From contig NZ_JACJUD010000002.1 of assembly GCF_014174475.1 (NCBI RefSeq), positions 186,001-250,000 of the forward strand: a stretch of 64,000 nucleotides of DNA, in the 5' to 3' direction. This DNA comes from Aquipseudomonas ullengensis (GTDB lineage: Bacteria > Pseudomonadota > Gammaproteobacteria > Pseudomonadales > Pseudomonadaceae). Below the pieces are notes generated by a model. That model worked only from the letters and a program-made list of their open reading frames with translations. It did no database searches and was not told the origin of the DNA. The translations under genes were made by a program, and so were the position numbers. Positions 1,921-34,740 of this stretch are shown here, one piece after another (positions within the stretch are counted from its first letter, which is position 1; each line of letters begins with the position of its first letter).

Positions 1921-2107
1921 AAGGGGCGGGTTTGACTGTTCTATGACACGTACTACCTCCCCGCCCCGGGTAAGGTGTGCGTGTCATAGGTCTTGTCAAA
2001 CCCAGGCCGGTTAGGGCCTTGGGTCGCATGCGCCATGCTCTGCGGAGCAAGTGTGTTGACGCATGCCGGGTGAGCGGGCGCTCACGGGAGACTACTCCCC
2101 TAGGACG
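1921..2107 (-). ncRNA. yybP-ykoY manganese riboswitch and expression platform
   Basis: Read on the minus strand, the leader holds the conserved loop GGGGAGUAG (complement of about 2093-2101), the GCGUCAACACAC loop (about 2053-2064) and a CAAGACCUAUG element (about 1984-1994), the recognisable core of the yybP-ykoY class. The 3' part contains nested inverted repeats (1928-1936 with 1995-2003; 1941-1950 with 1980-1989) and a competing pairing (1923-1930 with 1960-1967) just before the ribosome binding site, as expected of a switch acting on translation or termination. The class senses Mn2+. The downstream exporter gene fits. Confidence 0.87.
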
Positions 2108-2145: not shown

Positions 2146-3609
2146 TCAGTCGTCGCTGCTGCGCACATCCATATCCTGGTAGCTCACCAGTCGGCTGCCC
2201 TTCTTCATGCGATAGCCCAGCCAGATGGCGAGGAACAGCGGCAGGCTGATGTAGGTGGCGACCAGGCCGGCCCAGTCGATGTTGTCGCCGACGAAGGCCT
2301 GGTAGTTCTGCCCGAGGGTGATCACCAGGCACAGGCTGAAGGCGAACAGCGGGCCGAAGGGGAACAGCTTGGCGCGGTAGGGCAGGTCTTCCAGGCGCCC
2401 GCCCTGGGCCAGGTAGCCCTTGCGGAAGCGATAGTGGGAGATGGCGATGCCCAGCCAGGCGATGAAGCCGCACATGCCCGAGGTGTTCAGCAGCCAGGTA
2501 TACAGGGTGCTGTCGCCGACGATGGAGGTGAAGAAACACAGCGCGCCGACCAGGGTGGTGACGTACAGCGCGTTGCGCGGCACGCCGCTGGCGGACAGGC
2601 GGGCGAACAGCTTCGGCGCCTTACCCTGTAAGGCCAGGTTGTACAGCATGCGCGTCGAGGCATACATGCCGGAGGTGCCGGCCGAGAGGATGGCCGTGAG
2701 GATCACCGCGTTCATCACGCTGGCCGCGGCGGCGAAACCGGCACGCTCGAACAGCAGGGTGAAGGGCGACACACTGATGTCGCTGGCATCGTTCTGCATC
2801 AGGCTCGGTTCGGTGTAGGGAATCAGCATGCCGATCACGAAGATCGCCAGGATGTAGAACATCAGGATGCGCCAGAACACCTGGCGGATGGCGATGGGGA
2901 TGTTCTTGCGCGGGTTCTCCGACTCGCCGGCGGCGATGCCGATCAGCTCGGTGCCCTGGAACGAGAAGCCGGCGATCATCGCCACCCCGACCATGGCCTG
3001 CAGGCCGCCGACGAAGGGCGCATCACCGGTGGTGAAGTTGCTGAAGCCGGGGGATTCGATGCCGCTCATGATGCCGAAGATGGTGGCCAGGCCGACACCG
3101 ATGAAGATGAGAACCGTCACCACCTTGATCAGCGCGAACCAGAACTCGCTCTCGCCGAAGCCCTTCACCGAGACGACGTTGAGCAGGAACATCACGCCGA
3201 GGAACAGGGCGCTCCAGTAGATGCCCGGCACGTCTGGCAGCCAGAAGCTCATGATCAACTGGGCCGCCACCAGCTCGGCGGCGATGGTCACTGCCCAGTT
3301 GTACCAATAGTTCCAGCCCTGGGCGAAACCGAAGCCCTCGTCGACGAAGCGGCTGCCGTAGGTGCTGAACGAGCCGGATACCGGCATGTACGCGGCCATT
3401 TCGCCGAGGCTGGTCATCAGGAAGTACACCATTACCCCGATCAGCGCGTAGGCCAGCAGTGCGCCGCCCGGGCCGGCAGTGGCCACGGTGGCGCCCGAGG
3501 CGACGAACAGGCCGGTGCCGATCGAGCCGCCGATGGCAATCATGTTCAAGTGGCGCGGCTTGAGTACGCGGTGCAGGCCCGGCTGGGCGGTGGTCGGTGT
3601 ATCAGTCAC
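2146..3609 (-). CDS. lysP: lysine-specific permease, APC superfamily
   Basis: A 487-residue inner-membrane amino acid:proton symporter. The sequence closely follows E. coli LysP as I remember it: an N-terminal HLNMIAIGGSIGTGLFVASG first helix, MTSLGEMAAYMPVSGSF, GWNYWYNWAVTIAAELVAAQ, GFSFQGTELIGIAAGES and AISHYRFRKGY. About twelve hydrophobic segments are visible. The length matches LysP (489). GabP or AnsP paralogues are alternatives but fit less well. It follows rsmC on the same strand with a 58-nt gap holding a hairpin, so it probably has its own expression. Confidence 0.88.
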   Translation of the reverse strand: MTDTPTTAQPGLHRVLKPRHLNMIAIGGSIGTGLFVASGATVATAGPGGALLAYALIGVMVYFLMTSLGEMAAYMPVSGSFSTYGSRFVDEGFGFAQGWNYWYNWAVTIAAELVAAQLIMSFWLPDVPGIYWSALFLGVMFLLNVVSVKGFGESEFWFALIKVVTVLIFIGVGLATIFGIMSGIESPGFSNFTTGDAPFVGGLQAMVGVAMIAGFSFQGTELIGIAAGESENPRKNIPIAIRQVFWRILMFYILAIFVIGMLIPYTEPSLMQNDASDISVSPFTLLFERAGFAAAASVMNAVILTAILSAGTSGMYASTRMLYNLALQGKAPKLFARLSASGVPRNALYVTTLVGALCFFTSIVGDSTLYTWLLNTSGMCGFIAWLGIAISHYRFRKGYLAQGGRLEDLPYRAKLFPFGPLFAFSLCLVITLGQNYQAFVGDNIDWAGLVATYISLPLFLAIWLGYRMKKGSRLVSYQDMDVRSSDD

Positions 3610-3667: not shown

Positions 3668-4666
3668 TTAGCCGCGGCGGGCGCGGTAGATGCGGAAGCC
3701 TTCGGCATCCTTGAGGGTCTGGCAGGCACCCAGGTGCTGTTCGATCAGTGGCGGGTACTTGAGGAAGCTGTTGGCCACCAAGCGTAGTTCACCGCCGCGC
3801 ACCAGGTGGCTGGCCGCCTGGCGCAGCAGGTGTTCGCTGGCCTGGTAGTCGGTGTGCACACCCTGGTGGAAGGGCGGGTTGGTGAGGATTGCGGCCAGTT
3901 CATGGGGAGCAGCGTCGATTCCGTCACCGGCGATCACGTTGGCGTCGAGGCCATTGGCGGCCAGGGTCAGGCGGCTGCTTTCGACGGCGAAGGCGTCGAC
4001 ATCGAGCAGGCTGACCTGGCTTTGCGGATAGCGGCGCTTGAGCACCGCGCCGAGCACGCCAGCGCCGCAGCCGAAGTCGAGCAGATGACCGCTCGGCAGG
4101 TTGTCCAGTTGCTCCAGCAGCAGGGCGCTGCCACGGTCCAGGCGCCCGTGGCTGAACACGCCGGGCAGGCTCAGCACCTGCAGCGGGCCATCGGCCAGGG
4201 CCAGTTCATAGCGTTGCGCCAGGCTGTGCAGGTCGGGGGCGGCGGGGGGCTGTTCCACGGTCACTTGCCACAACTGGCAGTGGCGGGCGCTGTCGAGCTT
4301 GCGCGGCTTGCCATAGGCGGCCAGTTGTTTGGCGGCGCGCTCGATGCCGCCACGTTTCTCGCCGACCAGGTACAGCTCGCGGCCAGCCAGGCGTGCGGCC
4401 AGGGCTTGCAGCAGGTAGTCGGTGAGTTCGCGCGACTTGGGCAGGAACAGCACGGCGCTGTCGAAGGTGCGCTGCGGGGCGCGGGTGTCGAACGCGCTGC
4501 GCTCGGCGAAGCGCGCCTGCAGCAGGCTGTGCTCACCGGCATGCCAGCCCCAGCCATGGGCGCGCGGCAGCTTGCCGAGCAGGTCGTCGGCAGGCAGACC
4601 GGCCAGCAGCAGATCGCCCTGGAACAGCTCCGCCTGGCGCAACAGCACCTCGCTTCGTGGGTCCAT
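3668..4666 (-). CDS. rsmC: 16S rRNA m2G1207 methyltransferase RsmC
   Basis: A 332-residue S-adenosylmethionine-dependent methyltransferase that modifies G1207 of 16S rRNA in the small subunit. The protein has the two-lobed RsmC architecture: a degenerate N-terminal MTase-like domain (about 1-160) and a catalytic C-terminal domain with the SAM motif [13 protein letters not shown] and the N2-guanine motif NPPFHQG. The length matches E. coli RsmC (343). It starts at [15 protein letters not shown], which matches the family N-terminus. Confidence 0.93.
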
Positions 4667-4699: not shown

Positions 4700-5668
4700 T
4701 TACCCGTTGACCACCCGCTTGGGCGCACCGGCGAAGAAGTGGCTGGCGTTCTCCGACAACTGACCGACGATGCGTTGGCGTGCCTCGCGACTGCCCCAGG
4801 CATTGTGCGGGGTGATGATCAGGCGCGGAATGTCCGCGGCCAGCAGCGGGTTGCCGTTGCGCGGTGGTTCCTCGCGCAGTACATCGAAGGCTGCGCCGCC
4901 GAGATGGCCAGCGCGCAGCGCGTCGGCCAGTGCCTGCTCGTCGACCAGGCCGCCGCGGGCGGTATTGATCAGCAGGGCCTGAGGTTTCATCAGCGCCAGC
5001 TCGGCGGCACCGATCAGGTTGCGTGTCTCGTCGGTCAGCGGACAGTGCAGGGTCAGGGCATCCACCTGGGGTAGCAGTTCGTGCAGCGGTAGGCGATCTG
5101 CACGCGGCGGGCGGCCGGGCAGGGCGCCGAGCAGCACGCGCATGCCGAAGGCCTCGGCCAGGCGTGCCACGGCGCCACCCAGCTCGCCATGACCGAGCAG
5201 GCCGAGGGTTTTGCCTTCCAGTTCGATGATCGGGAAGTCCAGCAGGCAGAACTGGCTGGCGCGCTGCCAGGCGCCATCGCGGATGGCCAATTGGTAGTCC
5301 GGCAGGCGCGTGGCCAGGGCGAGCAGCAGCATCAGGCAGTGCTGCGCCACCGACGGGGTGCCGTAGCCCTGGCAATTGCATACGCAGATGCCGCGTTCAC
5401 GGGCGGCGGCGAGGTCGACATTGTTGGTGCCGGTGGCCGAGATCAGGATCAGCTTGAGGTCGGGGCAGGCAGCCAGGGTGGCGGCATCCAGTGCCACCTT
5501 GTTGGTGATCGCCACCTGGGCATCCTGCAGGCGTTCAATGACCTGGGCAGGGGGCGTGCTGGCATGCAGGGTCAGCTCGCTGAAGGCTTGGCGCAGCGGC
5601 GCCATGTCCAGGTCGCCGAGGTCGAGAGAGGCGTGGTCGAGGAAGACTGCGCGGGTGGGACTATTCAT
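4700..5668 (-). CDS. D-2-hydroxyacid dehydrogenase, NAD(P)-dependent
   Basis: A 322-residue oxidoreductase of the D-isomer-specific 2-hydroxyacid dehydrogenase family, likely a glycerate/hydroxypyruvate-type reductase; the substrate cannot be set from sequence. The dinucleotide fold has the G-x-G-x-x-G motif in GLLGHGELGG, and the catalytic Arg, Glu and His are in NTARGGLVDE, FDVLREEP and TPHNAWGS. The frame is open further upstream to 5890, but the start at 5668 (MNSPTRAVFLDHASLD) gives the usual family length. It is divergent from the LysE exporter gene. Confidence 0.87.
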   Translation of the reverse strand: MNSPTRAVFLDHASLDLGDLDMAPLRQAFSELTLHASTPPAQVIERLQDAQVAITNKVALDAATLAACPDLKLILISATGTNNVDLAAARERGICVCNCQGYGTPSVAQHCLMLLLALATRLPDYQLAIRDGAWQRASQFCLLDFPIIELEGKTLGLLGHGELGGAVARLAEAFGMRVLLGALPGRPPRADRLPLHELLPQVDALTLHCPLTDETRNLIGAAELALMKPQALLINTARGGLVDEQALADALRAGHLGGAAFDVLREEPPRNGNPLLAADIPRLIITPHNAWGSREARQRIVGQLSENASHFFAGAPKRVVNG

Positions 5669-34600: not shown

Positions 34601-34606
34601 GGAGCC

Positions 34607-34740
34607 GTGCCAAGGGAAAGGCGCAGATTGTCAGGACGACAGTCAGGGAACCACTGCAGGATGCAGTTCATCAGGAAGATGGCAGGATTCTCAGGGAGTA
34701 GGGAAGAAAGAGTGGGCAGCTAATCACTGCCCCTTTTTTT
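34607..34740 (+). ncRNA. rsmZ: RsmZ-type small regulatory RNA
   Basis: A 134-nt RNA that sequesters the translational repressor RsmA/CsrA and so switches on secondary metabolism and biofilm genes. The region has eight GGA motifs in A/C-GGA context (AGGGA, CAGGAC, CAGGGA, CAGGAT, CAGGAA, CAGGAT, CAGGGA, TAGGGA), many in loops of short stems (for example CTGCAGGATGCAG), and ends in a terminator GGGCAG-CTAATCA-CTGCCC with seven Ts. It is just upstream of fdxA, the classical rsmZ position, and has a GacA site upstream. Exact ends are estimates. Confidence 0.9.

Follow-up and report, generated by a model that had tools for sequence, protein, structure and literature searches.

A yybP-ykoY manganese riboswitch before a putative Mn2+ exporter gene of the GDT1 family in a Pseudomonas, with a candidate expression platform

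The riboswitch and the gene behind it

The window, by which we mean the whole 64 kb stretch of DNA that was analysed, carries on its minus strand, read 5′ to 3′, rsmC (3668–4666), lysP (2146–3609), a riboswitch aptamer (1998–2112) with its expression platform, and a gene for a 194-aa protein of the GDT1/TMEM165/UPF0016 family (1324–1908); the riboswitch thus occupies the 5′ leader of the PF01169 gene that starts at 1908. The name lysP is that of the initial annotation, and NCBIfam places the protein in NF008094, an amino acid permease family. Elsewhere in the window, a PrrB/RsmZ small RNA (RF00166) was recognised at 34606–34740 on the plus strand (89.2 bits against 44).

The riboswitch had been proposed from three motifs, all of which were found on the minus strand and in the right order: GGGGAGUAG (2100–2092), GCGUCAACACAC (2062–2051) and CAAGACC (1995–1989). 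The covariance search suggested at the time returned a match to RF00080 (yybP-ykoY) at 2112–1998 on the minus strand, with 57.0 bits against a gathering score of 45, and bears out the assignment to this RNA family. The cmscan match covers model positions 1–177 of 177 with an E value of 2.1e-12, calculated over both strands of the 64 kb and 4227 Rfam families, and no other RF00080 match occurs across the genome (4.63 Mb in 13 contigs), hence it lies far beyond chance. The span first drawn for the element, 1921–2107, takes in most of the expression platform, which is located past the Rfam match, but misses the first five bases at the 5′ end of the model match.

Within the match, the conserved loop GGGGAGUAG (L1, 2100–2092) is followed by CGUCAACA (2061–2054), the order expected of RF00080. 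UCAACA of the loop GCGUCAACACAC, which played no part in picking the 60 leaders compared below (alignment A1), is invariant among them and its flanking helix covaries, as do the helices of the aptamer in general. The invariance of GGGGAGUAG in A1 is no evidence, because these leaders were chosen by the motif GGGGAGUA. The element before the exporter gene is a manganese riboswitch of a known class (treated in general in the accessible part of PMC7838592).

The membership of the downstream gene in the TMEM165/GDT1 family, also part of the initial annotation, is upheld by Pfam, with 144.6 bits for PF01169 against a cut-off of 27. The domain is repeated, giving two matched stretches in the protein, and these are the two PF01169 matches of the whole genome. 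The motif E-x-G-D-(K/R)-(T/S), described for UPF0016 proteins in the available text of PMC7380456, was read twice from the translation, as EIGDKT at residues 16–21 and EMGDKT at 115–120. According to the same portion of that review, V. cholerae MneA changed at E19, E116, D22, D119, K23 or T121 failed to complement a Mn-sensitive E. coli without MntP (PMC7380456). The product is likely a Mn2+ exporter resembling MneA. NCBIfam assigned no family to the 194-aa protein, and a PDB sequence search with it gave no solved relative at E 0.01.

A family search of the genome gave no match to MntP (PF02659) and none to PF02742, which we take to be the family with the C-terminal domain of MntR, and the riboswitch together with GDT1 may therefore be the main control of Mn export in this genome. 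Four TerC matches are present; none of these genes would have such a riboswitch, since the genome holds one RF00080 match. PA4629 may be the P. aeruginosa ortholog of the GDT1 gene. The paper naming PA4629 has it in a small-RNA table, with no mention of a riboswitch there.

The predicted expression platform

A set of 80 GDT1 loci was drawn from named genomes, with Pseudomonadaceae recognised by genome name. GGGGAGUA was found upstream of GDT1 in 67 of them, within 300 bases in 66 and further up in one (L077). These 67 comprise all 60 Pseudomonadaceae and seven others (L061, L062, L067, L072, L073, L076, L080), of which six names presumably belong to the Betaproteobacteria and one (L076) to the Bacteroidota, by class membership as we assume it; the latter is perhaps a mislabelled assembly. 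Alignment A1, made with MAFFT, holds 60 leaders, namely the window, L002–L057, L059, L060 and L071. It leaves out the 14 loci with no GGGGAGUA inside 300 bases, and also the seven of other groups, which were treated apart. L077 stands outside A1 on account of a long insertion in its aptamer, between the conserved helix and GGGUUUGACGAGACC (leader at ~3745–3906); its platform is kept and it still scores 48.8 bits with RF00080.

Helix P1 pairs its 5′ strand GUCCUAGG (2106–2099) with the 3′ strand CCUAUGAC (1990–1983), and the latter is common to a competing (anti-P1) hairpin, whose 5′ arm CUAUGACACG (1989–1980) pairs with the 3′ arm CGUGUCAUAG (1950–1941). In the minimum-energy fold of the window this hairpin is extended by the outer arms GGGUUUGAC (2003–1995) and GUCAAACCC (1936–1928), with six pairs recurring in the consensus fold. 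The anti-P1 hairpin is paired in 99.0% of 600 cells of A1 and has changes on both sides at five of its ten pairs; 0 of 500 shuffles were as high on each of five measures, and slid versions were at most 46.4% paired. Its pair at column 295 is lost in four leaders (L049, L059, L060, L071). P1 is paired in 86.7% of 480 cells, with one position (columns 8 and 247) pairing in none of the 60 leaders. One of its eight pairs has changes on both sides, a count reached by 217 of 500 shuffles; none of the 500 shuffles attained its covariation score of 0.046, but P1 with a slide of +2 scores higher (0.058), though with only 63.3% paired. Covariation of P1 on its own appears thin.

The base at column 245 belongs to both helices. 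At columns 10, 245 and 295 the letters are A-U-A in 49 leaders; five have G-C-G, three A-U-U, two A-U-G and one G-U-U. In L017, L024, L036, L052 and L057 the shared base changes with both of its partners, from A-U-A to G-C-G, and both helices are kept via the change at all three places, which would be as expected of mutually exclusive helices. The five leaders may represent fewer than five events, because related leaders are not independent. The CCUAUGAC strand thus appears to alternate between P1 and the long competing hairpin, and this competition is well supported. Competition between the closing helix P1 and a structure further downstream is a mark of membership in RF00080, and it is found here.

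A further helix, S2, joins the loop of the competing hairpin to the stretch directly 5′ of the Shine-Dalgarno sequence, pairing GGGGCGGG (1967–1960) with CCCGCCCC (1930–1923). It is paired in 97.5% of 477 cells of A1. Its covariation is weak, with one pair changed on both sides (a count reached by 88 of 500 shuffles) and further pair types at a level that 494 of 500 shuffles reach, and slid versions score higher. The A1 statistics understate S2, because in L060 and L071 MAFFT misaligns the S2 arm. Counted without the alignment, at the best register and with no shuffled control, 6–9 bp were found in 61 of 61 sequences (A1 plus L077). The outer C is changed to U in eight sequences, four of which have A opposite (L033, L060, L071, L077). 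These eight form 63 pairs with their own 3′ arms against 57 with the consensus arm, and L059 is the only one that fits the consensus arm better than its own. Separately, a fluoride riboswitch (RF01734) was seen in L059 at 5030–5093 on the plus strand (51.5 bits), ~450 bases past the end of GDT1.

The hairpin loop also matches the stretch before the start in the seven leaders from other groups, in five of them as GGCCGG/CCGGCC. Shuffled loop and pre-start pieces match equally well at rates of 0.3 to 10.5% per sequence, hence single cases are weak and it is the agreement over seven that carries weight. We suggest tentatively, and with considerable doubt, that a four-strand expression platform, consisting of the strand alternation and S2, is common to the GDT1 leaders of Pseudomonadaceae and of some other Proteobacteria, with the letters GGGGCGGG/CCCGCCCC in one group and GGCCGG/CCGGCC in the other.

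The Shine-Dalgarno region UUAGGA lies at 1922–1917, and its AGGA ends eight bases before the AUG at 1908–1906. In the free fold of the window it is paired with the 5′ strand UCCUAGGGG (2105–2097). This pairing was considered as a general OFF lock and rejected: its value is 0.86 in the window, but the mean over the 60 leaders is 0.39 and the median 0.28. The start context CCUGAUG is common in the leaders and can fold with the UUAGG of the Shine-Dalgarno into a weak local hairpin (window 1922–1906, minus strand).

When P1 was forced in the window leader, long-range pairing of the Shine-Dalgarno fell from 0.94 to 0.12 and S2 rose from 0.0 to 5.1 pairs. Mean S2 pairs rose from 0.09 to 8.5, with a gain of more than three in 60 of 60 leaders and five of the seven others, a gain that is partly made by the method, because S2 and the competing hairpin exclude each other in a nested fold. 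The response of the Shine-Dalgarno was less uniform: its long-range pairing dropped by over 0.1 in 32 of the 60 leaders, increased by over 0.1 in 13 and shifted by a smaller amount in 15, and among the seven other leaders it fell in three and rose in two. The gain in its mean unpaired probability was small (0.21 to 0.27), with 41 of the 60 leaders showing a higher value. The folding model puts the mean cost of the P1 state at 11.3 kcal/mol, therefore Mn2+ would have to act during transcription. Release of the Shine-Dalgarno on closure of P1 thus has partial, moderate support from folding, and we consider it an evenly balanced prediction.

We propose that, with Mn2+ bound, the aptamer would be closed by P1 (2106–2099 with 1990–1983), upon which the loop segment 1967–1960 would pair with 1930–1923 and leave the Shine-Dalgarno free. 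Without Mn2+, the 3′ strand of P1 would be captured by the hairpin 1989–1980/1950–1941, extended by 2003–1995/1936–1928, and the Shine-Dalgarno would be held in long-range pairing. At high Mn2+ the exporter would then be translated and Mn2+ removed, closing a feedback loop. Mn2+ as the ligand of the window copy, an ON direction of the switch and translation as the controlled step are what we infer, and Mn2+ turning translation on is the most likely mode. As the leader RNA carries a manganese-sensing switch, the exporter is most likely made only when Mn builds up.

The same riboswitch could instead work on transcription, with the untranslated, Mn-free leader terminated by Rho, or else by the competing hairpin, Mn2+ letting the polymerase pass and ribosome access being secondary. 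This is a possibility that we take seriously, though we lean against it. It would accommodate the non-uniform computed release of the Shine-Dalgarno over relatives, and the E. coli mntP leader undergoes Rho-dependent termination that is partly relieved by Mn2+, according to the accessible part of PMC11647493. Against it, direct reading of the window found no U run after the competing hairpin or S2 before the start codon, and in the available part of a study of V. parahaemolyticus, RNA-seq of the Mn-induced mneA showed no drop in coverage at the riboswitch (PMC13274385). We also discarded an intrinsic terminator within the platform, as the window shows no U run and a scan of the leader gave no terminator-like site on this strand.

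A leader peptide was sought in the frame that opens at the AUG within CCUAUGAC and runs for 22 codons in the window, but we do not take it as kept. This frame begins with AUG, GUG or UUG in 60 of 60 leaders, and CCGCCC lies a multiple of three bases away in 47. It was rejected because its frame relative to GDT1 varies (0, 1 and 2 in 21, 15 and 24 of the 60 leaders) and it ends after no more than five codons in L002, L003, L037 and L044, while in others it continues beyond the GDT1 start.

S2 may, alternatively, not be a helix of the Mn-bound state: together with the competing hairpin it could form a pseudoknot that blocks the ribosome in the Mn-free state, a reading we hold to be rather improbable. 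The folding tools used consider nested pairing, and pseudoknots lie outside their scoring. The order of the strands, with the S2 5′ arm inside the hairpin loop and the 3′ arm 3′ of the hairpin, is that of an H-type pseudoknot, and at the 12 loci checked the best loop match ends 6–16 bases before the start codon; in L057 it is a match to the Shine-Dalgarno itself. In the window, however, the S2 3′ arm (1930–1923) shares bases with the hairpin's outer arm (1936–1928). If S2 did form a pseudoknot with the hairpin, this would be a coupling of Mn2+ aptamer to ribosome for which the accessible portions of the literature examined hold no description. The leader of L057 (Denitrificimonas) has a hairpin loop, AACCUUA, that is fully complementary to its Shine-Dalgarno stretch, UAAGGUU.

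The promoter and the conservation of the locus

A candidate sigma-70-type promoter, TTGCCA-17-CAAAAT, is present at 2142–2114, from which transcription would be expected to start near 2107. It had been described as overlapping the end of lysP; the proposal stands in substance, but the site begins three bases after the lysP stop codon (2148–2146) and there is no overlap. The consensus scan found one site against 0.4 expected in the scanned stretch. A lenient pattern (TTGNNN, 16–18 bases, NANNNT, 11–15 bases 5′ of GGGGAGUA) recurs at this position in 59 of the 60 leaders, with the single miss, L052, cut by a contig end, and column information over the 60 leaders peaks at the TTG of the first hexamer and around the second. 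The hexamers sit within a loose inverted repeat, CUUGCC...GGCAG (window 2143–2114, minus strand), that is near-perfect in L002 and not palindromic in other relatives; it could be a regulator site or chance.

The exporter could in principle be expressed mainly by read-through from lysP, which lies on the same strand as the riboswitch and ends 33 bases before the aptamer match, with the promoter of the riboswitch weak or unused. We regard this as very unlikely: relatives with rsmC rather than lysP upstream retain the promoter elements at the same position, so the promoter travels with the riboswitch and not with lysP, and its conservation, being independent of lysP, sustains the initial proposal of a riboswitch with its own promoter. 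In 54 of 60 Pseudomonadaceae loci rsmC ends at most 150 bases upstream of GGGGAGUA, and besides the window lysP occurs in two of 80 loci. The remaining six comprise L002 and L003, with lysP in between, L014 and L015, with rsmC at 211 and 307 bases, and L052 and L057, where no rsmC was found. The window, L002 and L003 have lysP between rsmC and the riboswitch. With rsmC directly upstream in the 54 loci, lysP seems to be an insertion in the lineage of the window, or a gene lost elsewhere.

The link between RF00080 and GDT1 drawn at the outset is kept in relatives. A match above the cut-off precedes GDT1 in 63 of 80 loci (15/17, 16/17, 16/17, 10/17 and 6/12 in five batches) and in 56 of 60 named as Pseudomonadaceae; the other four (L009, L017, L033, L040) have GGGGAGUA at the right place and no RF00080 match above the cut-off. 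Neither GGGGAGUA nor an RF00080 match was found before GDT1 in L058, L063–L066, L068–L070, L074, L075, L078, L079 and L081. Sampling of the genus gave a match in 198 of 199 genomes (own genome included), above the cut-off in 197. A decayed or non-sensing relative of the riboswitch is scarcely credible, given this retention, a full-length match above the cut-off and covarying helices.

Two observations concern the class more broadly. Four leaders of other groups (L067, L072, L076, L080) score 89.8 to 95.1 bits with RF00080, against 45.3 to 58.0 bits in Pseudomonas leaders, and their matches extend into the platform; the Rfam model may fit this group best. In L085, L086 and L097 a second manganese riboswitch precedes an MntP-like gene (product judged by eye), with a leader unlike those of GDT1.

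Comparison with known manganese-responsive leaders

Taken as a whole, the locus very probably holds a Mn2+-sensing yybP-ykoY riboswitch with its own promoter before the Mn2+ exporter gene, of the GDT1 family, of a Pseudomonas. The pairing of riboswitch and exporter is already known, common in bacteria and ordinary in kind: in the available text of one review, 328 of 333 screened strains with a UPF0016 gene had it under yybP-ykoY (PMC7380456), hence sensor and effector are a known pair. Among the matches listed from the open-access literature, judged by title and the start of the abstract, no paper dealt with the platform in Pseudomonas.

The window resembles the RF00080 class in its full-length model match, its conserved loops and its place in the leader of a Mn-related transporter; no departure from the aptamer model was found, and the downstream platform is that of its lineage. 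E. coli mntP has the same class of riboswitch and, in the accessible part of PMC11647493, a leader whose ribosome binding site is freed by Mn2+; its exporter, however, belongs to the MntP family, for which the genome of the window has no match. The mneA genes of V. cholerae, induced by Mn2+ (PMC7380456, available portion), and V. parahaemolyticus (PMC13274385, likewise in part) share with the window a GDT1/UPF0016 exporter behind a yybP-ykoY leader, but belong to a different genus, whereas the window gene follows lysP; the comparison covers gene family and riboswitch. The circuit is thus one of standard metal homeostasis, and the added value lies in a platform model that names exact bases to mutate, from which the route from Mn2+ switch to ribosome in Pseudomonas could be learnt.
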